A stretch of 64,000 nt of DNA, taken from the NCBI GenBank assembly GCA_036399055.1, contig DASWNX010000006.1, positions 23,524 to 87,523 of the forward strand. Direction: 5' to 3'. The notes beneath the pieces were generated by a model that was not told the origin of the DNA, did no database searches, and saw only the letters and a program-made list of their open reading frames with translations. This stretch comes from Jatrophihabitans sp. (GTDB lineage: Bacteria; Actinomycetota; Actinomycetes; Mycobacteriales; Jatrophihabitantaceae). Position 1 is the stretch's first letter. Each line of letters opens with the position of its first letter. This document shows, piece by piece, positions 37,030-58,952 of the stretch. A program made the position numbers and the translations under genes.

Positions 37030-37059
37030 GGCTATGCGCCGAAGCTGGCGCGGTCCAGG

Positions 37060-41902: not shown

Positions 41903-41911
41903 CGAGCCGAC

Positions 41912-43165: not shown

Positions 43166-43261
43166 GGGGCCAAGCTCCTTCGCGCGCATCGGCGTGGGCA
43201 AGCGTTAGCCCCTTGCCGAATACGGTAAATGGCCCCCAAGTTGGTCACATCGCGCTGATGG

Positions 43262-43320
43262 TCAAATTTAGGAAAGGCGTTTCAAATCTATGAAAAGCCC
43301 GTCAAAGTTTATGAATTGGC
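43262..43320. repeat. Three direct repeats with exact 20-bp period upstream of the antiporter
   Basis: TCAAA(T/G)-type units with GAA and GC ends start at 43262, 43282 and 43302. The block is far more AT-rich than its surroundings and lies about 100-155 bases before the antiporter start, on the same face of the helix. It looks like an operator for a regulator that binds cooperatively. Confidence 0.65.
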
Positions 43321-43401
43321 AGCTGAAGCCAGCAGCTCAGCGGGAACCGAACTAGGCACAGCGGTGATGACACACTCAGATAACCCAGCGTTCACAAGGC
43401 A

Positions 43402-44880
43402 TTACCGCGTAGGGAGCGCGTCGGCGCCGCCGCGATAGACGACTAGGGCCTCCCGGCGCACCGAGAACGTCACCTTGTTCGGCGCGTCGGTCACCTCGCC
43501 GTCGCGGGCGAGGTAGCCGGGCGGCCCGGAGGTCGTGACCGTGAGGCTCGGGGTGCGGGTCTCGACGTAGCGTGAGCTGCGATACAGGTCTCCGGTGAGC
43601 GCGCCGAGCAGCAGCCGCCACCGCGCGCCGGAGAGGGCTGAGTCGACCAACCGCACGTCCAGTTGACCGGAGTCCATCGCGCTGCGCCAGCGAGGCACGA
43701 AGCCGCGCGGAGAGTAGCCGCCGTTGCCGATGAAGATCATGACCAGCCGGCGCCGCACACCGTCGACCTCGGCTTCCAGCGGCGGGCACTTGCGCAGCAC
43801 CTGGGCGATTGCCCACGCCGCGGCCACCGGCTTGCCGACCCGCTGCTCCCAACGCTCCCGGATCTTGACGAACTCCGGGTAGCTGCCGAGGCTGGCGGTG
43901 TTGAGGAACAGCTTTCCCTCGGCGTCACCGACATCGACGCAGATCGCCCGACCGGCGGCCAGCGCCTCGACGGCGTCCTCGACGTCGGTCAGCTCCAAGT
44001 CGGCGGCGAAGTGGTTGAAGGTGCCGGCCGGCACCACCAACAGCGGCACCCCGGCGTCCACGGCAGCCGTGGCCGCCGCGTTGATCGTGCCGTCCCCGCC
44101 GGCGACGCCGAGCACCTCGGCGCGCTTGGCGGCCGCCCGCATCGCTTCGACGACGTCATCGGCCTCGCCCAACTCCACGATCTCGGCGGCGGGCAGGGCC
44201 TGGCGCAGCTGTGCGGCCACCCCCTCGTTGCCGCCACCGCCGGACAGCAGGCTGACCACCAGCACCACTCCCTGCCCGGCCGGACGGGGCGGCTGCGGAC
44301 GGGCCGGGGCGCTGTCGACGCGCACCGGCTCGGGGTGGCGCGCCGGCACGGCTGCCGCCCCGATGCCGGCCACGGCGGCGCCCAGGGCCGCCCCGGCAAG
44401 CACATCGCTGGTGAAGTGGACGCCGGTGAAGATCCGGGAGAAGCAGACCGCCCCGGCCAGCGCCCCGATCGGCGCCGCGAGCTCGGGGAACTCGAACCCG
44501 ACCGCGACCGCGAAGGCCGCCGCGGAGGCGGAGTGCCCGGACGGAAACGAGCTGGACGTGGGCACGTGGTGAGCGATCCGGGCGGTGGGCACGTCACGCA
44601 GCAGCGGACGCCTGCGGGGCACGGCGCGCTTGCCCACCTGGTTGGCCAGCAGGCTGGCGACCGCGATCGACCCCAGTCCCCGGACCGCCGCGCGACGCGG
44701 CCTGGTGTCGCCACTGGCGAGCAGGGCGGCCGAGATCGCCATCCACAGTTTCGACTTGTCAGCCGCGCGGGTGAGCAGCGGCAGCCCTCGCTCAAGGACC
44801 GTCGGCAGCGGCGCCGCGCCGATCCGGGCGCTTACCGCCACATCCCAGCGGCTAACGGTCGAAAACGCTCCGTGATCCAT
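43402..44880 (-). CDS. Bifunctional PAP2 phosphatase / diacylglycerol kinase-family lipid kinase
   Basis: The 492-residue product fuses two lipid enzymes. The N-terminal PAP2 domain (about residues 30-185) has KRAVPRRRP, SFPSGHSASAAAF and SRIFTGVHFTSDVLAG, the three phosphatase motifs. The C-terminal kinase domain (about residues 205-492) has VVSLLSGGGGNEGV and the ATP motif GVAGGDGTINAAA, then an acidic and Gly-rich half. Such fusions are known in actinobacteria; they presumably act on membrane lipids at the inner leaflet. Which lipid is phosphorylated cannot be said. Confidence 0.88.
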   Translation of the reverse strand: MDHGAFSTVSRWDVAVSARIGAAPLPTVLERGLPLLTRAADKSKLWMAISAALLASGDTRPRRAAVRGLGSIAVASLLANQVGKRAVPRRRPLLRDVPTARIAHHVPTSSSFPSGHSASAAAFAVAVGFEFPELAAPIGALAGAVCFSRIFTGVHFTSDVLAGAALGAAVAGIGAAAVPARHPEPVRVDSAPARPQPPRPAGQGVVLVVSLLSGGGGNEGVAAQLRQALPAAEIVELGEADDVVEAMRAAAKRAEVLGVAGGDGTINAAATAAVDAGVPLLVVPAGTFNHFAADLELTDVEDAVEALAAGRAICVDVGDAEGKLFLNTASLGSYPEFVKIRERWEQRVGKPVAAAWAIAQVLRKCPPLEAEVDGVRRRLVMIFIGNGGYSPRGFVPRWRSAMDSGQLDVRLVDSALSGARWRLLLGALTGDLYRSSRYVETRTPSLTVTTSGPPGYLARDGEVTDAPNKVTFSVRREALVVYRGGADALPTR

Positions 44881-44978
44881 CCGGCAAGCCTAGTGGCCCG
44901 AGCGCTTGGCGTGTGGTCGATGTGCTGTCAGCTGGGGCCTCACGCGCGCCTGCTGTCGAAACGATCATGGCAATTGTC

Positions 44979-45008
44979 TTGTTAAAGCCTGATTGACAAG
45001 GTTCTATA
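44979..45008 (+). promoter_or_regulatory. Candidate promoter of the 45-56 kb operon, giving a leaderless transcript
   Basis: TTGTTA (44979-44984), 18 bases, TCTATA (45003-45008). Transcription would start at or next to the ATG at 45014. No Shine-Dalgarno element is present before that ATG, which fits a leaderless mRNA. The block is AT-rich. Confidence 0.45.
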
Positions 45009-45013
45009 GATAA

Positions 45014-45745
45014 ATGGAATTAGCCCGAATTGCCGCAGACACCGGTGGGCGAGGTTCCAGGCTGCCGAGCAGGCCGGCCGACGCGGCGATCGAGGCCGTC
45101 CTCTTCGACTGCGACGGCGTTCTCGTAGACAGTGAATCGCTGTCGGCTTCCATTCTCAGCGCGATGCTCGACGAGCGAGGAGTCACGCTCGGCTTCGCCG
45201 CGGCGCTGGACCTGCTGCGCGGCCGGAAGGTCGCCACCTGGGTCGCCGAGCTGTTCGCCGGGTCGGCGCTGGCGGGCTCGCAGGAGACGTTCACCCGCGA
45301 CTACCGGGCCCGCGTCTCCACGGCCTACCGCCACGAGCTCCAGGCCGAACCGCACGCCCAAGAGCTTCTCGACGGAATGGACGTGCCGTATTCGATCGTG
45401 TCCAACGCGCCTGAGTGGAAGATCCGCGATGGCCTGACGTGCGCGCGGTTGGAGGCGGGCTCGGCCCATCAGCTCGTCAGCGCCTATGACCTGCAGTCAT
45501 GGAAGCCGGAGCCCACCGTCTACCTGCACGCCGCGGCCGGGCTGGGTGTCGCGGCTGAACGCTGCCTGGCGGTCGAAGACAGCGACGCGGGCGTCCGCGC
45601 GGCGCACGCGGCCGGGATGCGGGTCATCCACTACACCCGCGACGACGCGGTCCCGACCCACCCGTTGGCCGTTGCCCGAAGCCGGCACCACGCGCAGACA
45701 CAGCTCATCATCGCGTCCCTCGCCACCCAAGGAGCTGCCGTATGA
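45014..45745 (+). CDS. HAD-family sugar-phosphatase-like hydrolase
   Basis: The 243-residue product has the HAD motifs: VLFDCDGVLVDSES (catalytic Asp pair), the motif II region YSIVSNAPEWKI, WKPEPTVYLHAAAGLG with the lysine, and VEDSDAGVRAAHAAGM with the motif IV acids. The cap is of the beta-phosphoglucomutase/sugar phosphatase kind. It probably removes a phosphate from a small sugar phosphate. It is the first gene of the 45-56 kb train and overlaps the transaldolase gene by 4 bases. The start ATG lacks a ribosome site. Confidence 0.85.
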   Translation: MELARIAADTGGRGSRLPSRPADAAIEAVLFDCDGVLVDSESLSASILSAMLDERGVTLGFAAALDLLRGRKVATWVAELFAGSALAGSQETFTRDYRARVSTAYRHELQAEPHAQELLDGMDVPYSIVSNAPEWKIRDGLTCARLEAGSAHQLVSAYDLQSWKPEPTVYLHAAAGLGVAAERCLAVEDSDAGVRAAHAAGMRVIHYTRDDAVPTHPLAVARSRHHAQTQLIIASLATQGAAV

Positions 45746-46911
45746 CTGGCCAGATCATCGCCTCGCCCACCGGCGCGCAGTCACCACAGGGCATCGGCGG
45801 CCATGCCGCCCTGGCAGGGCAGATTCGCGCTGCTCGAATCGCCAACCCGGCCATTGAATTCTGGTTCGACAGTCACCCGCGCATCCAGTCGCCGGACACG
45901 CCGGCCGGTGAGGCGGTCGCCGACACCCTCGGTCATTACGGCCCGTCCTCGGCAGGATCACCCGAGCTCGCGGCCGAGCTGACCGGTGTGACGACCAATC
46001 CCAACCTCATCGAGGAGTACGACGCCGTGGTCCGGCGACGCACCAGTGCCACCGACCCGCGCACAGCCGCGACGCGCGATCGGAGTTACCCCGCCCACAT
46101 CGCCTCGGCGGCCGAGGCGATGCGCGAGCTGCACGACCGCTCTGCCGGACGGTACGGCTGGGTGTCGGCGCAGGTGTCGCCGCGTCACACCTTCGACACC
46201 CGCGCCATCGTCGAGGAGGGTCTGCGGCTGGCCGCGGTGGCCAGGAACGTGATGGTCAAGGTCCCCGGCTCCCAGCAGGGCTACCGGGCCATCGAGCACC
46301 TGGTCGGCTGCGGGGTCTCGGTGAACGGCACTCTGAGCTTCAGCCTCGCGCAGTTCGAGGCCTTCGCCACCGCTGTCGCCTACGGTCGCGGCCGGCTCAG
46401 CAGGTCCGAGAACGACGGCGTGCGAACGGTGGTCACGCACATGGCGGGCAGGGTCGGCGACGCCGTGCGCGCCTACAGCCGAGCCGAGGTGAGCCTGCGC
46501 AGCCTGCGAGTGGCCGAGGCCGCGCTGGCCCGGCGCGGCGCGGACCTGGTCGCCCAGATCGAGCCGCACAGCTCGATCCTGATGTCCAGCGTGCGTATCG
46601 ACGCCGGAGCCGCCGAAGAATGCCTGCACATCAGCGCCACCCTCGACAAGCCGATCGCCTACACCATCAACCCCGGCACCTACGCGGCGCTCGAGCGGGT
46701 CGACATCGCCGCCGTCTTCCATCCCGGGACCGACCTGCTCGACGAGGTGGACGCGCTCGGCGCCGGCGCCGCCGCGCACGAGCTGATCCGCCCGCTGTTC
46801 AACCGCGCCCTGCCCGCAGCTGAGTTCTGGACCATGCCGCAGTTCCTGCAAACCCTGGCCGAGGCCAGCTCGTCGCACCTGAAGCTGATGGGCGGGGGGC
46901 ACGCGGCATGA
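45742..46911 (+). CDS. Transaldolase-family enzyme
   Basis: The 389-residue product has the transaldolase family blocks: IEFWFDSHPRIQ with the Asp, VTTNPNLIEE, the Schiff-base lysine in VMVKVPGSQQGYRAIEHLV, GVSVNGTLSFSLAQFEAF and the C-terminal LIRPLFNRALPAAEF. The N-terminal 35 residues and a segment at about residues 95-130 are not typical of housekeeping transaldolases. It is therefore a divergent member, possibly transferring or releasing a dihydroxyacetone unit. It overlaps its neighbours by 4 bases on both sides. Confidence 0.82.
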   Translation: MTGQIIASPTGAQSPQGIGGHAALAGQIRAARIANPAIEFWFDSHPRIQSPDTPAGEAVADTLGHYGPSSAGSPELAAELTGVTTNPNLIEEYDAVVRRRTSATDPRTAATRDRSYPAHIASAAEAMRELHDRSAGRYGWVSAQVSPRHTFDTRAIVEEGLRLAAVARNVMVKVPGSQQGYRAIEHLVGCGVSVNGTLSFSLAQFEAFATAVAYGRGRLSRSENDGVRTVVTHMAGRVGDAVRAYSRAEVSLRSLRVAEAALARRGADLVAQIEPHSSILMSSVRIDAGAAEECLHISATLDKPIAYTINPGTYAALERVDIAAVFHPGTDLLDEVDALGAGAAAHELIRPLFNRALPAAEFWTMPQFLQTLAEASSSHLKLMGGGHAA

Positions 46912-47633
46912 GACTGTCCCTGTGGAGCCATCCGCGCTCGCGATCGACTGCGCTGGAGCGCTATTTCGACAACCGGGGCGACGTCATCACCCACCATGAG
47001 GTGCTCGCCGACTACTACTACATCCACCGGCGCGCCGAACCCATCGAGCACGCCCAGATCGAGGGCGACACAGGGCGGACCTACGAAGAGGCCGCCCGCA
47101 TCCTGCTCGGCCCGGCCGACCGGCCCGTCGTGCACAAGGATTTCCCGTACCACGCCATCGACGAGCTCTGCGCCGACTCGCGCTGGCTCGACGGCCACCA
47201 TGCCGTCCTGGTGCGCGAACCCCGCGAGACGATCTACAGCAACCTCAAGCTCCGCACCCAGGTCACCGGCAAGAACCTCGGCTACGCCGACCTGTGGCGG
47301 TGGCACCAGCACCTCAGCGCCGCAGGCAGCCGGCTGCAGGTCATCGACGCCGAGCAGCTGAACGCAGACCCCGTCCAGACCGTCAGCTCTCTCTGCCGGT
47401 TCGCCGGGCTGCCCTTCGACGAGGGGGGCCTGAGCTGGCAGGCCGACATGAGCGACTCCTGGACCAAGTGGGCCGGCTGGCATGTCGAGGTGGCCCAGAG
47501 CCGCGGGTTGGGGCGCCCCGCGAGCGTCCCCGCCGACTGGGTGGTCCCGCCGGAGCTCGACGGCGTGTACGCCGAGGCCTGCGACGTGTACACCGCCCTG
47601 CGCAAGACGACACTCGGAGAGGTGAGGCTGTGA
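46908..47633 (+). CDS. Sulfotransferase-fold protein
   Basis: The 241-residue product has the 5' phosphosulfate-binding block LSLWSHPRSRSTALERYF and the 3' phosphate region AVLVREPRETIYSNLKLRTQ, as in cytosolic sulfotransferases of the loosely annotated bacterial kind. The family is diverse and some members do not sulfonate. The central DFPYHAIDELCADSRWLDGH segment would shape the acceptor pocket. It overlaps the SDR gene by 4 bases. The acceptor would be the product of this cluster, which is unknown. Confidence 0.68.
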   Translation: MRLSLWSHPRSRSTALERYFDNRGDVITHHEVLADYYYIHRRAEPIEHAQIEGDTGRTYEEAARILLGPADRPVVHKDFPYHAIDELCADSRWLDGHHAVLVREPRETIYSNLKLRTQVTGKNLGYADLWRWHQHLSAAGSRLQVIDAEQLNADPVQTVSSLCRFAGLPFDEGGLSWQADMSDSWTKWAGWHVEVAQSRGLGRPASVPADWVVPPELDGVYAEACDVYTALRKTTLGEVRL

Positions 47634-48379
47634 CGACGGCAAGACAGAACTCGACCGGGCGGGGAACCTGCGTCGTGACCGGCGCCGCGAACGGCATCGG
47701 CCGGGCGCTGGCTCACCGGCTGGCAGACGCCGGCTACGAGCTGCTGCTGGTCGATGTCGACGGGGCCGGCCTGGACAAGGTCGCCGGCGAACTGCCGGCC
47801 CCGCCATGGACCGTGACCGCGGACCTGTCCGGGCGCTCGGGCGTCGAGCAGGTGTGCGAGGCGATCGGCAAGATCGACCATCCCGTCGCCCTGGTCAACA
47901 ACGCCGGGATGTACCGCGGCAATCCGTTGCACACCTATGACGTGGCGATGATCGAGGGAGACTACTGGGTCAACGTGCTGGCCCCGATGCTGCTCACCCA
48001 GGCCTACGCGACGCCGCTGGTCGAGCGGGGCGAGCTTGGCTGCGTCGTCAACCTCTCCTCCACGGCTGGGGAGATCGGCAGCTCCGACGCCGTCTACGGA
48101 TCGTCGAAGGCGGCCGTGATCGGCCTCACCAAGTCCCAGGCGATGAACTACGCACCCTGGGTCCGGGTCAACTGCGTGTCACCCGGCCTGGTGCGCGACA
48201 CCGCTATCGAGGACCGGATCCCCGCCTACCGCCACGCCGAGTACGCCCGCCAGGAGCAGTTGAGCACCCGCCTGGACGCAGCCTCGGTGGCCGAGGTGAT
48301 CGAGTTCCTGATCTCACCGGCCAGCCGCAACCTGACCGGCAAGGTCATCCCCGTGGACAACGGCGCCTATCCGCGCTGA
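47630..48379 (+). CDS. Short-chain dehydrogenase/reductase
   Basis: The 249-residue product is a classical SDR: the cofactor motif VTGAANGIGRALAHRL, LVNNAGMYRG, the catalytic serine in VVNLSSTAGEIG, YGSSKAAVIGLTKS with the Tyr and Lys, and NCVSPGLVRDTAI. NAD or NADP use cannot be told with confidence; an aspartate after the second strand (LLVDVDGAG) favours NAD. GTG at 47630 overlaps the sulfotransferase stop. Confidence 0.88.
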   Translation: MTTARQNSTGRGTCVVTGAANGIGRALAHRLADAGYELLLVDVDGAGLDKVAGELPAPPWTVTADLSGRSGVEQVCEAIGKIDHPVALVNNAGMYRGNPLHTYDVAMIEGDYWVNVLAPMLLTQAYATPLVERGELGCVVNLSSTAGEIGSSDAVYGSSKAAVIGLTKSQAMNYAPWVRVNCVSPGLVRDTAIEDRIPAYRHAEYARQEQLSTRLDAASVAEVIEFLISPASRNLTGKVIPVDNGAYPR

Positions 48380-48458
48380 TCGAGCGGCGCCGCTCATCCG
48401 TCGCCGATGACCGCCGCCCTTCCGATCACCCCACTCAGCACAGCCGAAGGAGCACGTC

Positions 48459-49613
48459 ATGCAGCACCTGAGCCCGGTGGGACACCACCGCGTCCTCATA
48501 GTCGGTTACGGCGATCTGGCGAAGAAGATCGCCAACGCCCTCGTCCTCGACCAGCGGTTGGACGCCATCGCCGTCACGTCCCGGTCGGAGGAGCAGATAA
48601 CCCGGGACTCCAACCTGCTGAGGTTCACCGGCATCAACCACGGTTTCCGGGGTGAGGTGAGCGGGCATGTCGTGGACCTGCAGCAGCCGGCGTCGGCGGT
48701 CGAGGTCCTGGACCGGTTCCAGCCGACGATGGTGATCAACTGCGCCTCGGTCCAGTCCTGGCGGCGGCTCACCGAGCTGCCCGCCGCGCTGTACCGCGAA
48801 CTCGACGAGGCCCAGTTCGGCCCGTGGCTGCCGATGCACCTGGCCCCCGTCCACACACTCAGCCAGGCGCTACGCGCGCATGCCGGCGCCCCTGTGCTGG
48901 TCAACTGCGCCTTCCCCGACGCGGTGGGGCCGGTGCTGGCGCCGCTGGGACTGGCGCCCACGATCGGCGCCGGCAACGTCGCCAACGTGGTGCCCGCTCT
49001 CACCTGGTCCGCGGCGCGGGTGCTGGGGCTGCCGATCGACGAGCTCGAGGTGCGGCTGGTGGCCCAGCACTATTACAGCCACCGGCTGCCGCGCGCCGGC
49101 GACGCGGGTGAGGCCGAGGCGGCGCTGGAGATCCGGCGCCGCGGAAAGGTCCTCGACACACGTTCGGACCTGGAGGCGATCCAGCATGGGGTCTCCACGT
49201 TCTGCCGCCGCACCGGCGGCGTCGACGGGCAGTCGCTGACCGCCTCGTCGGTGCTGTCGGTGGTTCGGGCGCTCATCGGCGACCGGCCGACGCTGGTGCA
49301 CGCCCCGGCCCCGGGTGGGTTGCCCGGCGGGTACCCGGTGCTGGTGAGCCGGGCCGGCTTCGAGTTGAGCCTGCCGACGGGCATGGACCAGTCCGAAGCC
49401 GTCCGGATCAACGAGGTGGGCCAGTACGCCGACGGCATCGCCGCCATCGACCCGGTCACCGGCGCCGCTGCCATCCGGCCCGACAAGCTCGAGATCCTGC
49501 AGCGTCACTTCAAGGTGAACCCAGACCCGATCGAGCCGTCGACGGCCTGGCAGCGCGCGCATGAGATGCATGAGTCCTTCAGCGAGCTGCTGTCAGCCAG
49601 GAGCGCGGCATGA
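48459..49613 (+). CDS. Rossmann-fold NAD(P)-binding oxidoreductase of unknown family
   Basis: The 384-residue product begins with a dinucleotide-binding motif (HRVLIVGYGDLAKKIANALV) and continues like saccharopine-dehydrogenase-type enzymes: TMVINCASVQSWRR, VLVNCAFPDAVGPVLAPLG, and an alpha/beta half to the C-terminus. No close named family is recognised. It starts 79 bases after the SDR gene with GAAGGAG upstream, and its stop overlaps the methyltransferase start by 4 bases. It may act in the same pathway as the SDR. Confidence 0.7.
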   Translation: MQHLSPVGHHRVLIVGYGDLAKKIANALVLDQRLDAIAVTSRSEEQITRDSNLLRFTGINHGFRGEVSGHVVDLQQPASAVEVLDRFQPTMVINCASVQSWRRLTELPAALYRELDEAQFGPWLPMHLAPVHTLSQALRAHAGAPVLVNCAFPDAVGPVLAPLGLAPTIGAGNVANVVPALTWSAARVLGLPIDELEVRLVAQHYYSHRLPRAGDAGEAEAALEIRRRGKVLDTRSDLEAIQHGVSTFCRRTGGVDGQSLTASSVLSVVRALIGDRPTLVHAPAPGGLPGGYPVLVSRAGFELSLPTGMDQSEAVRINEVGQYADGIAAIDPVTGAAAIRPDKLEILQRHFKVNPDPIEPSTAWQRAHEMHESFSELLSARSAA

Positions 49614-50383
49614 GGGCCGAACTCGCGACCGATCAGTACGGGCAGGGCTTTGCCGCCCGCTGGGACGAGCTGGTGGATTGGGACCGGCGGCTCGCGGTCG
49701 AGGGCGGTTTTCTGGATTGGATGATCGAATCCGCGCCGGGGCCGGCCCTGCTCGATATCGCCTGCGGCACCGGATTCCACGCCGCCCACTTCCTCGCCGC
49801 CGGTTATCAGGTCGACGCGATCGACGGCAGCGCCGAGATGGTGGAGCAGGCCCGGGCCAACCTGAAGGCGCCGCGTCCGGACGTGCGGGTCGAGCAGATG
49901 GCCTGGGATGACCTGCGACCGTTGTCGTCGCTGCGCTATGACGCGGTGATCTGCCTCGGCAGCTCGATGCCGCACGCCGGCGCAGAGCAGCGCCGGATCC
50001 TGCTCCGCCGGCTTCACGCCCTGCTGAACCCCGGCGGTGTGCTGCTGGTCGATCACCGCAATTTCGACTACATCGTCAAGCACCAGGCCATGCCACCCGG
50101 GCGCAGCGTGTACGCCGGAAACGTCAAGGTCACGCTGGAGGCCAGCGACGCGGCCACCACCACCTTCGGATACCGCTACATCGATGGGTTCTACCGAACG
50201 CTGACCGTCGAGTCGCTGAGCTTCGACGAGCTGCGCGATGATCTGCGGGCAGCGGGCTTCAGCCACGTCGACTCTTTCGGTGACCAGCGGTTGATCTCCT
50301 CGGCCGATGACTCCGGGTTCTTCCTCCACCGCGCGGTCCGCGCCGCGACCGGCTGGCCGTCCCCGGATGACTCGACCGACTGA
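49610..50383 (+). CDS. SAM-dependent methyltransferase (class I)
   Basis: The 257-residue product has the SAM motifs: LLDIACGTGFHAAHFLAAGY (motif I), VDAIDGSAEMVEQARANLK (post I), YDAVICLGSSMPHA (motif II) and LLNPGGVLLVDHRNFDYIV (motif III). The N-terminal VEGGFLDWMIE and other blocks resemble small-molecule N- or O-methyltransferases such as the glycine/sarcosine group. The acceptor is unknown. Confidence 0.85.
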   Translation: MRAELATDQYGQGFAARWDELVDWDRRLAVEGGFLDWMIESAPGPALLDIACGTGFHAAHFLAAGYQVDAIDGSAEMVEQARANLKAPRPDVRVEQMAWDDLRPLSSLRYDAVICLGSSMPHAGAEQRRILLRRLHALLNPGGVLLVDHRNFDYIVKHQAMPPGRSVYAGNVKVTLEASDAATTTFGYRYIDGFYRTLTVESLSFDELRDDLRAAGFSHVDSFGDQRLISSADDSGFFLHRAVRAATGWPSPDDSTD

Positions 50384-50414
50384 CCGTGACTTCGACGACG
50401 TAGAAGGAGCTCGC

Positions 50415-51734
50415 ATGACCTCACGGATCGGCACCCCGGCGCAGCGCTGGTCGGCCGTGTTGTTGATCGCCGGATTCGTGGGAGTCACCTACGGCTTCGG
50501 CATCTACGTGTTCAGCCAGTTGCTGCCGACGATGTCTGACGACCTCGGATTCTCTTACGCCACCGCCGGCCAGATCACCGGCATCGGGCAGTTGCTGTTC
50601 ATCGTGTTCGCCTTCGCCGCGACCTGGCTGAGCCACCGGTTCAACGGCGCCGTGGTGGTGGTGGGCTCAGCGGCGCTGTGCACGCTGTGCCTGATCGGCG
50701 TGGGGCTGACGAGCAGCACCGTGGTGCTCACCATCTGCCTGGCGATCGCCGCAGGCACGTCTGCCTCGGTGTACGTCCCGATCGTGGAGATGGTGCCGCG
50801 GCTGATCGAGGGCAACCGGCGCGGCACGGCCCTGGGCATCATCTCCAGCGGAACGACCTACGGGATCTTCGTCTCGGCCGCGGTCATCCCGGTGCTGACC
50901 GACACTGTCGGCTGGCGGGCGGTCTGGTTCGTGGTGGCCGGCGTCTCGGTCGCGCTCATCGTGGTCGCGGTCCGGCTGTTCTCGCGGCTGGGGCTGTTCC
51001 AGGACCTGCCGGATCCGGCGGCTGAGGACGCTGCCGCCGGCAGTGCTGGCGTGAGCGGCGGCGCCGCCGACCGGCCGCGAGCCCGGCGGTCGCTAGCTGC
51101 CGGTTTGGCGTTCATCAGCGTCTGGATGGTCGGGATCTGGGTCATCAAGTTCATGAACGGCTTCTCGTTCATGTCCTACCAGAACTTCCTGGCGCCGCTG
51201 CTGCGCGACCATGGCGGCCAGACGATCGGCTATTCCTCCGCGGTCTGGATGACGATCGCCGTCGTCGGCGCGTTCGCCGGCTTCGCCGTCGGCCGGCTCG
51301 GTGACGTCCTGGGCCTGCGACGCACGTTGACCATCTGCTACGGCCTGTTCCTGGCCAGCTGCCTGCTGCTCTACACCTCGCAGTCGGGGTGGTTGCCGTT
51401 CGTCGCGGCGATGCTGTTCGGGCTGAGCTTCTACCCGATCTACGGCCTGGTCCCCGCCTACGTCGGCAAGATCTCGACGGTGTCGCAGGCGACGCTGATC
51501 TTCGGCCTGGCCAACGTCTTTCAGGGCGCCGGCGGCGTCGTGGGCAACCTGACCGGCGGATCGGTGGCCACCGACACCGCGTGGCTGCCGAACTACTACC
51601 TGCTGCTCGGGGCTGGCGCGTTCGTGCTGGCTGCGGCGACCCTGGCGTTGCCCTCGGACCGCGCCACGCGTCGCGCCGACGCTGCGACCGGCTCCGGCAC
51701 CGACACCTCCCGGGAGGCTGTCGAAGCCCACTAG
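50415..51734 (+). CDS. MFS transporter
   Basis: The 439-residue product has 12 membrane segments in two halves with a central acidic/Ala-rich loop around residues 200-225. The start GVTYGFGIYVFSQLLPTMSDDLG and the FAVGRLGDVLGLRR loop motif place it near the oxalate/formate-antiporter-like MFS branch. It could export or import the compound handled by this gene train. GAAGGAG lies 5 bases before the ATG at 50415. The gap to the methyltransferase gene is 31 bases. Confidence 0.85.
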   Translation: MTSRIGTPAQRWSAVLLIAGFVGVTYGFGIYVFSQLLPTMSDDLGFSYATAGQITGIGQLLFIVFAFAATWLSHRFNGAVVVVGSAALCTLCLIGVGLTSSTVVLTICLAIAAGTSASVYVPIVEMVPRLIEGNRRGTALGIISSGTTYGIFVSAAVIPVLTDTVGWRAVWFVVAGVSVALIVVAVRLFSRLGLFQDLPDPAAEDAAAGSAGVSGGAADRPRARRSLAAGLAFISVWMVGIWVIKFMNGFSFMSYQNFLAPLLRDHGGQTIGYSSAVWMTIAVVGAFAGFAVGRLGDVLGLRRTLTICYGLFLASCLLLYTSQSGWLPFVAAMLFGLSFYPIYGLVPAYVGKISTVSQATLIFGLANVFQGAGGVVGNLTGGSVATDTAWLPNYYLLLGAGAFVLAAATLALPSDRATRRADAATGSGTDTSREAVEAH

Positions 51735-51821
51735 CGACGCCGACCACGCGGTCAGCTGCCGGCCTGGCAGAGTGAAAGACGCCTGAGCGACACCACGAAC
51801 TCGAGCAGGAGACTCATCAGC

Positions 51822-52823
51822 ATGAAGAAGCTCATCAACGATCCGCAGGACGTCGTCGCCGAGGCGCTGCTGGGCATCGAGGCAGCGCATCCGGAACTCA
51901 ACGTCGACCATCGCCACAAGATCATCTATCGGGGTGACGCGCCGCGGCCCGGCAAGGTCGGGATCGTCTCCGGCGGCGGCTCGGGGCATGAGCCGCTGCA
52001 TGGCGGGTTCGTCGGGCTGGGCATGCTGGACGCGGCCTGCGCGGGTGAGATGTTCACCTCTCCGGTGCCGGATCAGGTGCTGGCCGCGACCAAGCTCGTC
52101 GACGGCGGCGCCGGCGTGCTGCACGTGGTCAAGAACTACACCGGCGACGTGATGAACTTCGAGATGGCCGCGGAGCTTGCGGCGGCCGACGGCGGCACGC
52201 AGGTCGTCTCGGTGGTCACCGACGACGATGTCGCAGTGCAGGACAGCACGTGGACCGCAGGCCGGCGCGGGGTCGGCGCCACGGTCCTGCTGGAGAAGAT
52301 CGCCGGCGCCGCGGCCGAGCAGGGCCGGCCGCTGGATCAGGTGGCAGCGATCGCCCGCCGGGTCAACGCCAACGCCCGCAGCATGGGCCTGGCGCTCACC
52401 TCGTGCACGGTTCCGGCCGCAGGCAAGCCGACCTTCGAGATCGGCCCGGACGAGATGGAGCTGGGCGTCGGGATTCACGGTGAGCCGGGCCGCACCCGGG
52501 TGCCGCTGGCGCCGGCCCGTGACATCGCCGAGATGCTCCTCGAGCCGGTGCTGGCCGACCTGCCGTTCAGCAGGGGCGATCAGGTGATCGCCTTTGTCAA
52601 CGGCCTGGGCGGCACACCCCTGATCGAGCTTTACGTCATGTACAACGAGGTGAACCGGATCCTGCTCGGCCACGGCGTGCAGGTGGCGCGCTCGCTGGTG
52701 GGCTCCTACATCACCTCACTCGACATGGCCGGCGCGTCGGTCACGCTGCTCAAGCTCGACGATGAGCTGCTCTCACTGTGGGACGCCCCGGTGCGCACCG
52801 CGCGACTGAGCTGGGGCGCCTGA
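51822..52823 (+). CDS. dhaK: Dihydroxyacetone kinase subunit DhaK
   Basis: DhaK binds dihydroxyacetone as a hemiaminal to a histidine and phosphorylates it with a phosphoryl group carried by DhaL. The 333-residue product has [57 protein letters not shown] and [16 protein letters not shown], in which the histidine is the DHA ligand. It is followed 3 bases later by dhaL and then dhaM, the PTS-type arrangement. Confidence 0.95.
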
Positions 52824-52826
52824 CTC

Positions 52827-53462
52827 ATGGGCGGGACGGTCACGGTGGCGGGTGTGGGCAGCTGGATCCGAACCTTCGCCGAGCTCGTCGCCGAGCACAA
52901 GGACAGCCTGACCGAGTTGGACGCTGCGATCGGCGACGGTGACCACGGCGCGAACATGGACCGCGGCATGCGGGCGGTGGTCACCGCGCTGGAAGAGGCT
53001 GAACCCGCCACTGCGTCGGCGCTGTTCAGCAAGGCGGGCATGACGGTGGTCTCCACCGTCGGCGGCGCCAGCGGCCCGCTGTTCGGAACCCTGTTCCTCC
53101 GGATGGGAACGGCGCTCGGCGACAGCACCGAGATCTCACTGGCCCAGCTCGCGACGGCCTTGCGGGCCGGACTGGACGGGGTCCTCGCCCGAGGCAAGGC
53201 CGAAGCCGGGGACAAGACCATGGTGGACGCGCTGGCGCCGGCCGTGACGGCATTGGAGGAGGCCGCCGCTGCCCGGACGAGCATGGCCGAGGCGCTGGGG
53301 CTGGCGCTTTCCGCTGCCGAAGGCGGGCGGGACGCCACGACGCCGATGCAGGCCCGCAAGGGCCGCGCGAGCTACCTCGGCGAGCGCAGCGTCGGGCATC
53401 AGGACCCCGGCGCGACCACCGTCGCGCTGCTGATGGCGGCCGCCGTCCGGGCGTTGCCGTGA
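52827..53462 (+). CDS. dhaL: Dihydroxyacetone kinase subunit DhaL
   Basis: DhaL carries an ADP as permanent cofactor, accepts phosphate from DhaM and passes it to DHA on DhaK. The 211-residue product has LDAAIGDGDHGANMDRGMRA (nucleotide/metal block), VSTVGGASGPLFGTLFLRMG, GDKTMVDALAPAV and RKGRASYLGERSVGHQDPGATT at the end, all family signatures. It overlaps the dhaM gene by 4 bases. Confidence 0.95.
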   Translation: MGGTVTVAGVGSWIRTFAELVAEHKDSLTELDAAIGDGDHGANMDRGMRAVVTALEEAEPATASALFSKAGMTVVSTVGGASGPLFGTLFLRMGTALGDSTEISLAQLATALRAGLDGVLARGKAEAGDKTMVDALAPAVTALEEAAAARTSMAEALGLALSAAEGGRDATTPMQARKGRASYLGERSVGHQDPGATTVALLMAAAVRALP

Positions 53463-56086
53463 GCTCTGGCGGCGCTTCTGGTGGCGCTCCTGGCGGCGCT
53501 GGGAGTCCGGGCGGCGCTGGGAGTCCTGGCGGCGCTGGAAGTCCTGACGTGCCGCTGGTGGGGTTGGTGGTGGTCTCGCACAGCCGGGCGCTGGCCCGCG
53601 CGGCGGTGTCGCTCGCCTCGGAGATGTTGCACGACAGCCCGGTGCGGATCGCGGTGGCCGCCGGGCTGGACGAGGACACCCTGGGCACCGACGCCGTCGC
53701 CATCAAAGAAGCCATCGAGCAGGTGGACGGCCCCGCGGGCGTGGTGGTGCTGATGGATCTCGGCAGCGCGGTGCTCAGCGCCGAACTGGCCCTGGAACTG
53801 CTCGAAGATCCGGACGCGCGCGATCGCATCACGCTGTCGGCGGGGCCGCTGGTCGAGGGGTTGGTGGTGGCGGCCGTCGCCGCAGCCGGTGGAGCCCGGC
53901 GCGTCGAGGTCGCGGCCGAAGCGCAGAACGCGCTGCTGGGCAAGGCCGCTCAGCTGACCCCGTCGGGGGTTGCGCCTTCTACGGAGGTCGCGCCGACCAC
54001 GCAGGCTGACGAGCCGGTGACGGTGACGGGCGAGTTCACCGTTGCGAACATTCATGGTTTGCACGCCCGACCTGCCGCCCGACTGGTCAGTGAGCTGCGC
54101 GGGCTGGACGCCCAGGTGCGGCTGCGCAACCTCAGCACCGGCGCCGGGCCGCTGCCGGCGGGCAGCCTCAGCAGGGTCGCCACGCTCGGTGCGCTGCGAG
54201 GCCATCGGGTAGAGGTGCTGGCCTCGGGTCGGCAGGCGACCGAGGCGGTCGAGCAGGTGCTCGCGCTGGCCGCGCGCCAGTTCGATGAGCCGCTGGACGA
54301 CGCCACGGAGTCCGCGCAAGCGCCCGTGCCAGTGCAGTCAGGTCAGGCGCGATCAGGTCAGGCGCAGTCAGGTCAGGCGCAGTCAGGTCAGGCGCGGCGG
54401 GCCGGGCCGCTGCCGGCCTCGCCTGGAATCGGCATCGGCCCGGTGCGGCTGCTGACTTACGCGCCACCGGCTTCGGCGCCAGCGGCTGCCCGTCGCGGCC
54501 AGCCGAGCAGTCCGGCGGATGAGTGGCGCCACGTCGAGACGGCGCTGGCAGCGGTGCGAGGGGAGATCGGGCGACATCAAGCGCTCGCCCGCCAGACCGG
54601 GCCACAAGAAGCGCGGATCTTCGACGCCCACTTGTTATTGCTCGACGACGATGAGGTGATCGCCGACGTCAAGGCACGGCTGGCCTCTGGCGCGGACGCG
54701 GTGACCGCCTGGGTCGATGCCCTGGCGGTCGTGGAGCGGCAGTGGTCCGAGCTGGAAGATCCCTACCTACGGGCCCGCGCCGAGGACGTCCGCGCGGTCG
54801 GCGCGCAGGTGGTCTCCACCCTCGCCGGCGCCGCCCCGGTCGCGATGAGCGGGCCGGGTGTCCTGGTCGCGAAGGAGCTCACGCCCGGGCAGGCCGCCGA
54901 ACTCGACCGCGACTGCGTGCAGGGCATCGTGCTCGCCGACGGCAGCCCGAGCTCGCACGCAGCGATTCTGGCGCGCTCACGCGGGATTCCGGCCGTCGTC
55001 GACGCAGGCTCGGACGTGCTGGGACTGGCTGAGGGCACTCTGGTCGCTCTGGACGGCAGCACCGGCGAGCTGATCGTCGACCCGCCGGCTGCGACGGTGG
55101 CAGAGTTTCGCCGGCGGGCGGCTGAACTGGCGGCTCGGCAGAGCGAGCACCGTGCCGCCGCCGGCACGCCGGCGCGCACTGCTGACGGCGCCCGGGTCGA
55201 GGTCGCCGCCAACGTGGGCTCACGCGCAGACGCGTTGACGGCGGCTGCTGACGGCGCGGACAGCGCAGGCCTGGTGCGCACCGAGTTCCTGTTCCTCGAC
55301 CGCGAGGTGGCGCCGGATGTCGAGGAGCAGGTCGCGGAGTACCTGGCGATAGCCGAGGCTCTGCCAGGCCGCCGGATCACGCTGCGCACCTTGGACGTCG
55401 GTGGCGACAAGCCGCTGAGCTACCTGCCGATGCCGGCGGAGGACAACCCGTTCCTCGGCCACCGCGGCATCCGGCTCACCCTCGACCGGCGTGAGCTGTT
55501 GCTCGTCCAGCTCACGGCGATCTGCGAGGTCGCCCGGCAGGCGCCTGTCAACGTCCTGTTCCCGATGGTCAGCACCGTCACCGAGCTTCGGCAGGCGCGG
55601 CGCGTGCTCGACGAGGCGGCCGGTGTTCGCGGCCTGCCCGAAGGGCTGCGAGTCGGTGTGATGGTCGAGGTGCCGGCCGCGGCGCTCAAGATCGCGACTT
55701 TCCTCCCCCACCTGGACTTTCTCAGCGTCGGCACCAACGACCTGACCCAGTACACGCTCGCGGCGGAGCGGGGCAACGCCGCGGTAGCCGCTCTGTTCGA
55801 TCCGCTGGACCCGGGCGTGCTCAGGTTGATCGGGCGGGTCTGCGAGGTTGCTGGGCCTGTTCCGGTCGCGGTCTGCGGAGAAGTCGCCGCCGACCCGGCT
55901 GCGGTCCCGCTGCTGATTGGGCTCGGGGCGCGGGAGCTGAGCGTCTCGCCGCGCTCGGTGCCGTCGGTGAAGGCGCGGGTCCGGGAACTCGACGTGGCCC
56001 GCTGCGCTGCCCTGGCGCGGACCGCCCTCGACCTGGAGGACGCCGCGGCCGTCCGGGAGCTGGTCGGGTCGGCGCTCTCCTGCTGA
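53459..56086 (+). CDS. dhaM: DhaM-HPr-enzyme I fusion phosphotransferase
   Basis: A multidomain PTS protein that takes phosphate from PEP and hands it to DhaL. The 875-residue product has a Gly/Ser/Ala/Pro N-terminal arm (1-30), a DhaM EIIA-like domain with VVVSHSRALA (H41), an HPr domain with NIHGLHARPA (H202), a SGQA(Q/R) linker (about 294-313), an enzyme I domain with GSPSSHAAILARS (H500), and the PEP-binding half with VAVCGEVA (C806). Enzyme I and HPr fused to DhaM supply phosphate independently of the general PTS. Both low-complexity parts are encoded by tandem repeats. Confidence 0.93.
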   Translation: MSSGGASGGAPGGAGSPGGAGSPGGAGSPDVPLVGLVVVSHSRALARAAVSLASEMLHDSPVRIAVAAGLDEDTLGTDAVAIKEAIEQVDGPAGVVVLMDLGSAVLSAELALELLEDPDARDRITLSAGPLVEGLVVAAVAAAGGARRVEVAAEAQNALLGKAAQLTPSGVAPSTEVAPTTQADEPVTVTGEFTVANIHGLHARPAARLVSELRGLDAQVRLRNLSTGAGPLPAGSLSRVATLGALRGHRVEVLASGRQATEAVEQVLALAARQFDEPLDDATESAQAPVPVQSGQARSGQAQSGQAQSGQARRAGPLPASPGIGIGPVRLLTYAPPASAPAAARRGQPSSPADEWRHVETALAAVRGEIGRHQALARQTGPQEARIFDAHLLLLDDDEVIADVKARLASGADAVTAWVDALAVVERQWSELEDPYLRARAEDVRAVGAQVVSTLAGAAPVAMSGPGVLVAKELTPGQAAELDRDCVQGIVLADGSPSSHAAILARSRGIPAVVDAGSDVLGLAEGTLVALDGSTGELIVDPPAATVAEFRRRAAELAARQSEHRAAAGTPARTADGARVEVAANVGSRADALTAAADGADSAGLVRTEFLFLDREVAPDVEEQVAEYLAIAEALPGRRITLRTLDVGGDKPLSYLPMPAEDNPFLGHRGIRLTLDRRELLLVQLTAICEVARQAPVNVLFPMVSTVTELRQARRVLDEAAGVRGLPEGLRVGVMVEVPAAALKIATFLPHLDFLSVGTNDLTQYTLAAERGNAAVAALFDPLDPGVLRLIGRVCEVAGPVPVAVCGEVAADPAAVPLLIGLGARELSVSPRSVPSVKARVRELDVARCAALARTALDLEDAAAVRELVGSALSC
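53492..53545. repeat. 18-bp tandem repeat, three copies, in the DhaM arm
   Basis: GGCGGCGCTGGGAGTCC(G/T) occurs at 53492-53509, 53510-53527 and 53528-53545, the last with one change. It encodes the Gly-Gly-Ala-Gly-Ser-Pro repeats of the DhaM N-terminus. Confidence 0.92.
54338..54397. repeat. 15-bp tandem repeat, four copies, in the HPr-EI linker
   Basis: TCAGGTCAGGCGC(G/A)(A/G) occurs four times from 54338 at 15-bp spacing. It encodes Ser-Gly-Gln-Ala-(Gln/Arg) repeats between the HPr and EI domains. Confidence 0.92.
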
Positions 56087-56205
56087 CGCTGCCGAGCTAG
56101 GACCTGCGGTCAAGGGACGCCGAGCCTCCCCCGGGCAGTGCCAAAACTCTGCAGTTCGGCTTCTGCAGTTGGCTTCTGCGGGCGTTCTCGGACAGACTCG
56201 ATGTC

Positions 56206-56427
56206 ATGGCAAAGGACAAGGCTGAATCAGACACCAGCTCAGATGACCACGTGGCCGGCAGCAGGGCCACCGGCGGAGTGGAGAACCCCGACGCGCCCGA
56301 TCAGGGCAGCACCACCGGGACCACCCCCTCGTCTGAGTTCGTCGGGCGGGTAGCCGGGATCGATGAGAGTGACGTCGGCGAGAGCGGCGCCGAGGCCCGG
56401 GCCGCGGCTGGCGAGGGCAACGACTAA
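56206..56427 (+). CDS. Small acidic disordered protein
   Basis: The 73-residue product (MAKDKAESDTSSDDHVAGSR start) is rich in Asp, Ser, Gly and Thr and has no predicted helix except near FVGRVAGIDESDVGESGAE. It is hydrophilic and not recognised. It stands alone 119 bases after the DhaM fusion. Small disordered proteins of this kind are common in actinobacteria; function unknown. Confidence 0.55.
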   Translation: MAKDKAESDTSSDDHVAGSRATGGVENPDAPDQGSTTGTTPSSEFVGRVAGIDESDVGESGAEARAAAGEGND

Positions 56428-56612
56428 GCCTTCTTCGTGGCGACAGCGACTACGCGTCCTCGCGGTCGGCAGCCAGGTCCTGTGGTTTGTCAGGCCGGCA
56501 CCGGCACTTGAAGCCGTTCCGGAAGACGGGCGATCACGCCTTCCAAGGCGTCATGGCCGTGCCGAACTCCTAGTGACGCGTGAACGAACGACTCTCGTGA
56601 CACGATGCGGGT

Positions 56613-57326
56613 GTGCGCGTGGCGACCTGGAACCTGGAGCGGGCCGCTCCTGAGAGCCAAGCTGGCGTTCTGCAGCTCGCGACGATCGAACAAGCCGCCG
56701 CGGACGCATGGGTGTTCACCGAAGCTCACGAAGCCCTTGCTCTCCCAGGCTACGAGACGACCAGCAGCCACCCGATGCTCACCATTGAGCCCGCCCGGTT
56801 CGCCACGATCGCCGCTCGCAGTCTGCGAGCGCTACCGCTCCCCGAGCTTCCGACCGGGGTGGCCGCCATCGTCGCCGCGAACGGACGGGACTGGCTCGTC
56901 GTCGGCGTTTGCATGCCCTGGCGACACGACGCGCCGGCCCTCCCGTCCGGCGCGGGTGGTGGCGCCACGACCGGCTCTGAGCAGTGGCGAGCTGTCTTGG
57001 CCTGCCTCGATAGCGCCCTGCGCCGCCTCCTCGCGCTCGTTCCGCACAAGCCACTCCTCCTCGCCGGCGACTTCAATCAGACACTCGAGGGCTATGTCGT
57101 CGGTAGCCGGCAGGGCAGAACGTTGCTCGCTGATCTGCTGTCCCGTCACGCCCTAAGCGCCTACACCGCGACCGAGCCGTCATCGCTCACCGGCTGCTAC
57201 TCCATCGACCACATCTGTGGGCCGGACGACGCCGACGCGCGTGCCTGCACCTGGAAGCCGGCGCTGGCAGGCCGCTCGCTACGCCCGATCACCGACCATG
57301 CCGGCTACCTGGTCAGCCTGACGTAG
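56613..57326 (+). CDS. Endonuclease/exonuclease/phosphatase-fold protein
   Basis: The 237-residue product has EEP motifs: MRVATWNLERAA (metal-binding N), the central PHKPLLLAGDFNQTLEG (Asp, Asn), a YSIDHICGPDD (Asp/His) and SLRPITDHAGYLVSL with the terminal His. All four catalytic blocks are present. It is short for the family and lacks a signal peptide, so it is probably a cytoplasmic nuclease or phosphodiesterase. Substrate unknown. The start GTG-like upstream sites are possible; ATG is not seen at 56613 (GTG used). Confidence 0.8.
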   Translation: MRVATWNLERAAPESQAGVLQLATIEQAAADAWVFTEAHEALALPGYETTSSHPMLTIEPARFATIAARSLRALPLPELPTGVAAIVAANGRDWLVVGVCMPWRHDAPALPSGAGGGATTGSEQWRAVLACLDSALRRLLALVPHKPLLLAGDFNQTLEGYVVGSRQGRTLLADLLSRHALSAYTATEPSSLTGCYSIDHICGPDDADARACTWKPALAGRSLRPITDHAGYLVSLT

Positions 57327-57441
57327 CTCGCGCGGTCGCGCAGTCCCCCTGGCGATCTCATGCTTGCGAGTCAACGCGACCTAGGTCAGACTTCACGTCA
57401 CGCTCACATTGTGGCAATACCCGAGGCGAGGGGGACTTGCT

Positions 57442-58344
57442 GTGCCGATCGACGTCTCGCCCTCCGGAGGGCCAGCGCGTCCTCTCAAGATCATGGCGCT
57501 GCGTCGCCCTGGCGCCTGTGCCTGCGGAACCGACCTTGCTGCCGGCGATCAAGCCGCGTGGGACCGAGCCACTCGAACGGTGCAGTGTTTGCCTTGTGCT
57601 CAATCCACGCCGCCGATGGCGGCGGACAGCGAGCCTTCCACCCCGGTCGAGCCCGCGGTCGAACTCGGTATTGCCGGCGGCTCAGCCCAGCAGGAGTTCG
57701 ACCGGCGTCACGCCAAACGCGAAGAGCGCGTGCGCAGCGCCCATCCCCGGCTCGGCGGCTTGATCCTGGCGCTCTCCGATGACCCTCAGTCCACGACGGC
57801 GTGGAAGTCCGGCGCAGTGGGCGAACGCAAGCTCGGCGCCAAGCTGACAAGCCTGGGCGACACCGTCATCGCGCTGCACGATCGGCAAGTGCCTAAGAGC
57901 CGAGCGAATCTGGATCACCTCGTTGTCGGCCCAGCCGGTGTCTACGTCATCGACGCCAAGCGGTACAAGAACGCCAAGATCGCGGTGCGGCGATCGGGCG
58001 GCTTTCTCACACCCACCCGGACGCAGTTGATGGTCTCGGGAAGGGACAAGACCAAGCTCGTCGACGCGATGACGTGGCAGGTCGCCGCCGTGCGCGCCGC
58101 GCTGGCCGCAAGCCCCGAATTCGCCGATGCGCCGATAACCGCGGCGCTGTGCTTCATCGACGCTGAATTCCCGTTCTTCGGCACCATTGAGATCGGCGAC
58201 GTGCGGGTGCGCGGGCTAGGCGGCACAGCCAAGCTTGTCTCGGCAGCCGGCCCGTTCGACGCTGCGACCCGCGATCGCCTCGCTCGGCGCCTCGCCTCAG
58301 AGCTACCTGCCAAGCCGCCGAGTAACCCTGCGAGCGGTGGCTGA
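57442..58344 (+). CDS. NERD-domain protein with N-terminal zinc-finger-like Cys motif
   Basis: The 300-residue product has a Cys pattern GACACGTDLAAGDQA...CLPCAQ in the first 60 residues, a linker, then a NERD (nuclease-related) domain with WKSGAVGERKLGAKL, NLDHLVVGPAGVYVIDAKRYK (Asp and Lys of the nuclease core) and a helical C-terminus. NERD proteins are linked to DNA processing and defence. GTG at 57442 has GAGGGGG 7 bases upstream, preferred over 57409. It lies in the accessory right end of the window. Confidence 0.78.
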   Translation: MPIDVSPSGGPARPLKIMALRRPGACACGTDLAAGDQAAWDRATRTVQCLPCAQSTPPMAADSEPSTPVEPAVELGIAGGSAQQEFDRRHAKREERVRSAHPRLGGLILALSDDPQSTTAWKSGAVGERKLGAKLTSLGDTVIALHDRQVPKSRANLDHLVVGPAGVYVIDAKRYKNAKIAVRRSGGFLTPTRTQLMVSGRDKTKLVDAMTWQVAAVRAALAASPEFADAPITAALCFIDAEFPFFGTIEIGDVRVRGLGGTAKLVSAAGPFDAATRDRLARRLASELPAKPPSNPASGG

Positions 58345-58432
58345 AAGCAGCGTCGACACCGGCCGGCTCGGTACGGGCCAATGCCCACACCAATCAGGTG
58401 GTGAGACTGGCCTTCGTCGGCGAGGCGCCGTC

Positions 58433-58666: not shown

Positions 58667-58952
58667 CGTCGCCCCCGAGTCTCGTCCACCGATTCGCGGT
58701 GGTAAGCCGTGAACTACTTGAGCCATCCTGCTGGTCAGCAAGCCGTGTGTTGTCAGTCGAAGATCCCGATTCTCGCCGCCGCAGGACCGCTGCCAGTTTA
58801 CGCCCGTGCGAGGCGGGAGTCGCTGCGTCCGGCCGACTGTGGATCAGCGCGGATAGGCATGTTTGGGACGTCCGTTTAGTATCAGCACTATTCACCCGAT
58901 TATTAGTTTGCCTCGCGCCGCCGGCGCTTACGAGGTTGCCATAGGAGGAAAC

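Follow-up and report, generated by a model that had tools for sequence, protein, structure and literature searches.

A ten-gene train made up of two units

We analysed a 64,000-nucleotide stretch of DNA from a Jatrophihabitans sp. (assembly GCA_036399055.1, contig DASWNX010000006.1; hereafter the window) and focused on a train of ten open reading frames (ORFs) on its + strand, at 45014-56086. The train is two units: a set of seven genes, HAD-TAL-ST-SDR-ROX-MT-MFS (45014-51734), which we refer to as the cluster, and dhaKLM (51822-56086). The first gene of the seven encodes a HAD phosphatase (HAD; 45014..45745), whose best NCBIfam match, 6-phosphogluconate phosphatase, falls below cut-off. It is followed by genes for a transaldolase/FSA-family enzyme (TAL; 45742..46911), a sulfotransferase (ST; 46908..47633), a short-chain dehydrogenase (SDR; 47630..48379), an unclassified Rossmann-type oxidoreductase of 384 amino acids that serves as the cluster's signature gene (ROX; 48459..49613), a glycine/sarcosine N-methyltransferase-like protein (MT; 49610..50383) and an MFS transporter, which we presume from Pfam and gene order to be an exporter (MFS; 50415..51734). 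The second unit encodes the dihydroxyacetone (DHA) kinase subunits DhaK (51822..52823) and DhaL (52827..53462) and the phosphoryl donor DhaM, an EIIA-HPr-EI fusion (53459..56086). Two starts were corrected: SDR most likely begins with GTG at 47630, and MFS with ATG at 50415.

A preliminary description of this DNA had placed ten genes on one strand, with six pairs overlapping or within 4 bases of each other. Both statements hold, as the successive gaps are -4, -4, -4, 79, -4, 31, 87, 3 and -4 bases from 5' to 3', and six of the nine junctions overlap or are at most 4 bases wide. The widest gap is the 87 bases between MFS and dhaK. The family names given there (HAD, transaldolase, sulfotransferase, SDR, methyltransferase, MFS and DhaKLM) also have Pfam/NCBIfam support. 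Pfam assigns nine of the ten proteins, and six of the seven in the cluster; the exception is ROX, which lies below every Pfam and NCBIfam cut-off. Our scan of 44700-56500 found no promoter-like sites and one terminator-like site, on the - strand at 56238-56221, which is no more than shuffled sequences yield.

A seven-gene order conserved across two phyla

A TAL scan of a genome collection returned 89 relatives, and 80 loci were kept; ROX profile searches then brought in Streptomyces and more Pseudomonas. Gene order was counted by tblastn over loci with a ROX match above 150 bits; HAD, SDR, MT and MFS were counted only above 75 bits, so that weak genes were possibly missed. Short duplicates (L122-L169, L081 and L104) were dropped from the count. 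Besides the window, 33 loci showed the order TAL-ST-SDR-ROX-MT, comprising 27 from Pseudomonas, five from Streptomyces and one from Burkholderia. L188 and the short loci L191-L195, which have ST-SDR-ROX-MT without TAL, were left out of the 33. Many of the Pseudomonas loci are close relatives, two (L186 and L187) come from one genome, and eight of the 33 (L186, L187, L189 and L219-L223) were drawn from genera of named carriers. The full seven genes were in order in 25 of the 33 by script, and in 27 once L186 and L219 are included, whose TAL alignments are split in two. In a protein comparison, Burkholderia sp. and many Pseudomonas showed this seven-gene order, and nothing there matched dha. We conclude that the train is more than a chance arrangement, because the order of its first seven genes is repeated in members of two phyla.

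Sequence identity to the window is about 28-49% for the cluster genes overall, where compared. From HAD to MFS, the identities are 48, 33, 39, 47, 49, 41 and 45% for Streptomyces L220, and 37, 30, 32, 44, 39, 36 and 37% for Pseudomonas L014.

The distribution of the cluster is sparse and patchy over the two phyla. At E ≤ 0.001, 11 of the 396 genomes searched in the window's phylum gave a ROX match, of which the window's own was the sole strong one. The next best matches, in G422 (228 bits) and G264 (91 bits), were rejected as cluster members, the only further cluster gene in reach of them being a generic HAD gene in L134. Profile searches detected ROX in 35 of 298 Pseudomonas-genus genomes, 24 of 295 Streptomyces-genus genomes and 3 of 249 Burkholderia-family genomes, with 34, 13 and 2 of these matches, respectively, above 400 bits. 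At least six of the 34 strong Pseudomonas matches are lone remnants, and at least four of the 13 strong Streptomyces matches lie in other clusters. Horizontal transfer is the most likely cause of this patchy spread.

Phylogenetic trees separated the cluster TALs from 12 other TALs of the subfamily with moderate support (86/80; 89/67), and two Streptomyces groups were sister clades in both the ROX and the TAL tree. The ROX tree placed the window with Streptomyces rows (96/86), a set that includes L225, a HAD-ROX locus without TAL; support did not settle the placement of the window in the TAL tree. Six loci from the Pseudomonas genus (L180-L185, in G608, G507, G705, G571, G611 and G483) contain ROX without other cluster genes, apart from an SDR in L180. 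By eye, a flanking gene is common to five of the six (L180-L183 and L185) and the cluster carriers L012 and L023. These six loci are probably decayed clusters, and so cases of cluster loss.

Some variation among carriers was also seen. One genome of the Pseudomonas genus, G638, has two versions of the cluster (L186 and L187), one with HAD and MFS and one without. Pseudomonas L009 encodes a CGNR zinc-finger/ABATE protein after CysC (16546-17187), with a similar ORF seen by eye in L014 and L023; this protein may regulate the cluster. A literature search limited to open-licence papers found no paper on this gene set. PMC8719888 was considered as a counterpart and rejected, as the transaldolase and sulfotransferase mentions in the excerpts consulted are unrelated to the cluster.

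Sulfate-activation genes adjoin most related clusters

ST matches PF19798 (Sulfotransfer_5) with 53.6 bits against a cut-off of 23.2. The sulfate donor of such enzymes, 3'-phosphoadenosine 5'-phosphosulfate (PAPS), is produced by CysC, the adenosine 5'-phosphosulfate (APS) kinase. In 31 of the 33 loci, CysC lies no more than 9 kb from ROX and on the same strand; the two without it are L011 and L222, and the L222 contig starts at MT. In Streptomyces L220, L221 and L223, CysC-D-N come after MFS, and in Streptomyces L004, L005 and L218 they come before HAD-TAL-ROX and a sulfotransferase of a different type. Burkholderia L001 has an extra gene of the inositol-monophosphatase family (CysQ-like). 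The Jatrophihabitans host genome encodes an APS kinase in an apparent cys sulfate operon, with cysD and cysN read by eye, and eight of the nine genomes of the genus, the host's included, have an APS-kinase match above 150 bits.

Because CysC, the PAPS supply gene, adjoins 31 of the 33 related clusters, ST is very likely a genuine PAPS sulfotransferase. The order conserved in Pseudomonas, Burkholderia and Streptomyces and the neighbouring PAPS-supply genes together argue that the seven genes form a linked unit for assembly, tailoring and export. We hold with high confidence that the cluster is biosynthetic and conserved, and that its sulfotransferase is real.

A methyltransferase that suggests an amino-acid-like substrate

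The best NCBIfam match of MT is the glycine/sarcosine N-methyltransferase (GSMT) model NF051855, with 150.4 bits for the window, 289.7 bits for Streptomyces L220 and 244.4 bits for Pseudomonas L014, all under the cut-off of 350. The L220 protein aligned over nearly its full length with the solved GSMT 5h02 (238 bits). For residue roles in GSMT, including carboxylate-binding Arg167 and Tyr206 and catalytic Tyr26 and Tyr185, we relied on excerpts of PMC5146677, and the positions were mapped by hand on the alignment (offset 21). The equivalents of Arg167, Tyr206, Tyr26, Tyr185, His138 and Arg43 are kept in all 34 cluster MTs (33 loci and the window). On the amine side, Asn134 is changed to Ser and Met218 to Val, again in 34 of 34. 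MT is therefore a near full-length homologue of GSMT (MpGSMT; 5gwx, 5h02) that keeps both the carboxylate-binding and the catalytic pairs, but differs from it at two amine-side positions and scores under the family cut-off.

Its likeness to GSMT, with the carboxylate-binding Arg and Tyr preserved, suggests that the substrate of MT is amino-acid-like and not just a sugar. From this residue pattern, we read the substrate as an alpha-amino acid whose nitrogen bears a bulkier group. The preliminary description had proposed assembly, tailoring and transport of a sugar-like small molecule; the linked seven-gene unit upholds the first part of that proposal, but MT would shift the product away from a plain sugar.

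The transaldolase has a mixed active site

TAL matches PF00923 (TAL_FSA) with 96 bits against a cut-off of 27. We aligned 29 cluster TALs, from 27 loci of the TAL scan, the window and L220. All 29, and also 21 of 21 TALs from loci without ROX, keep Schiff-base Lys173, Asp43, Asn86, Thr197 and Arg237. Gln144 stands where ordinary transaldolases have their acid/base Glu, and Met234 stands at a position that is Phe in transaldolase and Tyr in FSA; both are found in 29 of 29 cluster TALs and in 50 of 50 when the loci without ROX are added. We take these positions to be equivalent to Glu96 and Phe178 of TalB. In a motif search of 51 other TAL matches, the acid/base position was Glu in 47, Gln in one and unassigned in three, and the Phe position was Phe in 44 and unassigned in seven. 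A further motif reads FWFDSH in the window and WWDSS in most relatives.

FSA has a water network formed by Gln59-Thr109-Tyr131, and work cited in the paper that describes it reports that swapping such residues interconverts aldolase and transaldolase (PMC13259622, in excerpt). This triad is incomplete in the cluster TAL, which has the Gln and the Thr with Met in place of Tyr. The enzyme thus shares with the TAL/FSA family its domain, its Schiff-base Lys and the conserved Asp, Asn, Thr and Arg, yet it lacks the Glu and Phe of a canonical transaldolase and combines an FSA-type Gln with a Met seen in neither type.

TAL relatives without ROX were rejected as cluster members; 23 such loci match over near full length and lie outside the seven-gene set, and 14 of the 23 have a transketolase-like ORF nearby, by eye. 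ROX-less TALs (L031, L179 and others) share the Gln/Met site, lie near transketolase-like or 2-oxoacid dehydrogenase genes, and are both proteobacterial and actinobacterial.

ROX neighbourhoods suggest carbon-nitrogen chemistry

An alignment of 12 ROX members listed 90 invariant positions common to all. Against the saccharopine-dehydrogenase NADP domain, PF03435, the window ROX scores 18.0 bits and does not reach the cut-off of 25.1. On three rhizobial plasmids, ROX relatives adjoin genes for alanine racemase, HAD and C45-peptidase. A Martelella relative adjoins creatininase, FAD oxidoreductase and DhaK-type genes, and in Rhizobium tumorigenes and Martelella, FAD oxidoreductases and amino-acid ABC transporters are encoded some 2-11 kb away from the relatives. 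These neighbourhoods suggest that ROX works in C-N chemistry, and reductive amination is our guess at its reaction.

Several ROX relatives were rejected as members. Those of rhizobia, Martelella, a Rhodobacteraceae plasmid and Planktothrix (6 of 20 plasmid records examined) lie outside the seven-gene set, and those beside genes resembling nonribosomal peptide synthetases (NRPS) were likewise not counted. On the Martelella plasmid (L174, 11399-13060), a DhaK-type kinase gene comes after a distant ROX relative (<150 bits), the sole other neighbourhood of ROX and a DHA kinase that we saw. Four loci of the Streptomyces genus (L225-L228) have HAD-ROX pairs and no transaldolase, and an ATP-grasp gene close by, which Pfam confirmed in three; three of the four show NRPS-like ORFs by eye, and L226 also has a Rieske oxygenase, a glutamine synthetase-like gene and a WelO5-like oxygenase.

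A proposed pathway and its alternatives

We infer a pathway, and an order of steps, that would use all seven proteins. TAL would transfer or add a dihydroxyacetone unit to an aldehyde through a Schiff base, giving a ketose phosphate, from which HAD would strip the phosphate; SDR would adjust the oxidation state. ROX, perhaps an enzyme like saccharopine or opine dehydrogenase, would couple a small amino acid, for example glycine, to the carbonyl of the ketose, and MT would N-methylate the resulting conjugate. ST would sulfate a hydroxyl with PAPS, which in the host may come from the genomic cysC-D-N operon, and MFS would export the product. The product would then be an N-methylated ketose-amino acid conjugate with a hydroxyl that is sulfated or activated by sulfate. 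This is the account of the chemistry that we favour, tentatively and at somewhat less than even odds.

Several observations weigh against it. The window MT reaches 150 bits where the GSMT cut-off is 350, and the residue pattern was read within the cluster MTs alone. ROX passes no Pfam or NCBIfam family cut-off; shikimate-dehydrogenase and epimerase domains score about as well as the saccharopine-dehydrogenase domain, and ahead of it in some members. The best match of ROX to a solved structure, carboxyspermidine dehydrogenase, is not significant (E 0.037, with unrelated proteins at 0.05-0.09). We recognised no amino-acid-supplying gene in the cluster. The window cluster has no adjoining CysC of its own, P. 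rhodesiae L011 shows neither CysC nor HAD, and the window is long-branched in both trees (1.63, 2.36).

Sulfate in this pathway may be kept, or else it may be a leaving group. If it leaves, ST would activate a hydroxyl that an amine (or a hydroxyl) displaces to close a ring, and the export product would be a small cyclic or strained amine. Such chemistry has a precedent in azinomycin biosynthesis, where a sulfated intermediate closes to an aziridine by attack of the neighbouring amine (the relevant part of the review PMC9570651, citing Kurosawa 2022). The substrate deduced from MT would bear an amine, and a relative 32% identical to ST lies in a Streptomyces plasmid cluster with LysW, a split transketolase, an aminotransferase, CysC, CysD and a GTP-binding CysN homologue. 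Against this, LysW, transketolase, aminotransferase and aminoadipate kinase are not among the ten proteins of the train by Pfam/NCBIfam, and we recognised no ring-closing enzyme. ST relatives occur in five plasmid records, two of which were examined, and the second of these (H22) lies among NRPS genes with cysC and cysD. We regard the loss of sulfate as possible, if on the unlikely side. The cluster with LysW is L177, from the plasmid of Streptomyces sp. NBC_00525; its LysW-transketolase-sulfotransferase-cysCD genes stand with stand-alone NRPS-type proteins, and it resembles azinomycin/vazabitide logic.

A nitrogen-free product, an O-methylated and O-sulfated sugar made from the transaldolase product, would suit HAD, TAL, SDR and MFS as makers and exporter of a sugar-derived molecule, with ST and MT as its decorators. 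The GSMT-like character of MT, with its carboxylate-binding Arg and Tyr kept in 34 of 34, and the annotation of ROX kin near amino-acid and racemase genes speak against this version, which we judge to be unlikely.

dhaKLM adjoins the cluster as a standard kinase operon

All three subunits of a bacterial DhaKLM are present in the window: DhaK matches TIGR02363 with 478 bits (cut-off 406.25), DhaL TIGR02365 with 239.9 (138.3) and DhaM TIGR02364 with 116.1 (98.25). The set shows nothing unusual save its position. None of the 33 related clusters has a dha gene within 9 kb of ROX, some loci ending earlier at contig edges. Among eight congeners, two (G007 and G008) have a strong dhaM match, and the G007 dhaKLM proteins are 85, 73 and 67% identical to those of the window. 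By eye, an aquaporin/glycerol-facilitator-like gene lies upstream of dhaKLM in G007, and no cluster genes were found near it in the 20 kb examined. When the cluster TAL was used as a query against the eight congeners, seven gave weak matches only (29-31%) and one gave none.

The history of the block was read from congener G002 (about 88% DNA identity), in which 71 bases separate the counterparts of window 43420-44936 and 56181-56434, and the block at 44937..56180 is absent. Because the flanks are near-adjacent in G002, all ten genes amount to a single 11-kb indel relative to that genome. In G003, G004 and G006, the left-hand neighbour gene has a homologue (46-48%), and the 9-14 kb examined gave no cluster-gene match. 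A check for a mobile-element edge, which did not extend to a family search for integrases, found no tRNA near the block, the one tRNA-Leu of the window being at 11468-11541; comparison of two block-boundary stretches likewise gave no perfect repeat of at least 11 bases common to both. To the right, synteny with G002 ends at window position 56434, and 56435-64000 has no match in the loci compared; GC content is 0.632 from window position 56600 and 0.696 for 35000-44900.

The preliminary description had linked all ten genes in one possible pathway. In such a pathway TAL, with its FSA-type Gln, could use or release free dihydroxyacetone for DhaKLM to handle. The Gln itself, the single indel and the DhaK-type kinase after the distant Martelella ROX relative fit this proposal. 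On the other side are the absence of dha genes beside all 33 clusters, the dhaM genes of G007 and G008 without a cluster TAL, the G007 dhaKLM that follows an aquaporin-like gene, and the width of the MFS-dhaK gap. We judge a single ten-gene pathway to be improbable. The preliminary description had also named separation of the first seven genes from dhaKLM in relatives as one observation that would count against its proposal, and this separation was seen: the cluster order returns in Pseudomonas, Burkholderia and Streptomyces with no dha gene within 9 kb of ROX, and in G007 dhaKLM stands without cluster genes in the 20 kb examined. We conclude that dhaKLM is a standard DHA kinase beside the cluster, whose membership in the pathway is not supported. 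It would be an independent operon for DHA utilisation, gained in or lost with the same 11-kb block. The cluster and dhaKLM may have moved together, but other genomes have the cluster with no dhaKLM beside it.

We regard it as highly improbable that the genes form a catabolic operon acting on a methylated or sulfated sugar imported by MFS, because a sulfotransferase served by PAPS synthesis and a methyltransferase are anabolic, even though TAL, HAD, SDR and MFS are also found in sugar catabolism and a TAL of the wider subfamily adjoins 2-oxoacid dehydrogenase genes in Shinella.

Comparison with known systems

None of the seven genes is a polyketide synthase (PKS) or NRPS gene, and rule-based genome miners would therefore be expected to overlook the cluster. 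It offers three enzymes of note: ROX as its signature, a transaldolase from a subfamily whose active site is mixed, and MT as a glycine N-methyltransferase that has been re-tooled. We consider it possible, with considerable doubt, that Pseudomonas, Burkholderia and actinomycetes share through it a new class of specialised metabolite: a ketose built by the transaldolase, which an unclassified opine-dehydrogenase-like enzyme would couple reductively to an amino acid and a repurposed GSMT would N-methylate, and which would also be sulfated or ring-closed via sulfate.

To our knowledge, none of the furanomycin, lincomycin and iminosugar pathways matches the gene set. The preliminary description had likened the train to the lincomycin octose (C8-sugar) pathway, with which the cluster has in common a transaldolase and a phosphatase that would build a sugar-like unit. 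In the lincomycin pathway, a sugar kinase, an isomerase and a nucleotidyltransferase stand beside the transaldolase. The first seven proteins here include no match to these three by Pfam/NCBIfam, and the active site of TAL is non-canonical, so the likeness is weak. Conversely, we know of no sulfotransferase, ROX or GSMT-like MT in the lincomycin pathway.

The azinomycin/vazabitide-type azabicycle pathways, which work with an amino-group carrier protein and sulfate elimination, are a further point of comparison. The differences are that these use a transketolase in place of the transaldolase, that their LysW carrier and aminotransferase are not found here, and that the plasmid cluster of this look has no ROX or GSMT-like MT annotated. 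The likenesses are a related sulfotransferase (32%), PAPS genes, carbon-carbon extension by an enzyme of sugar metabolism, and a small polyol bearing an amine. If sulfate does leave in the cluster described here, sulfate-elimination ring chemistry would be extended to sugar-derived amines.

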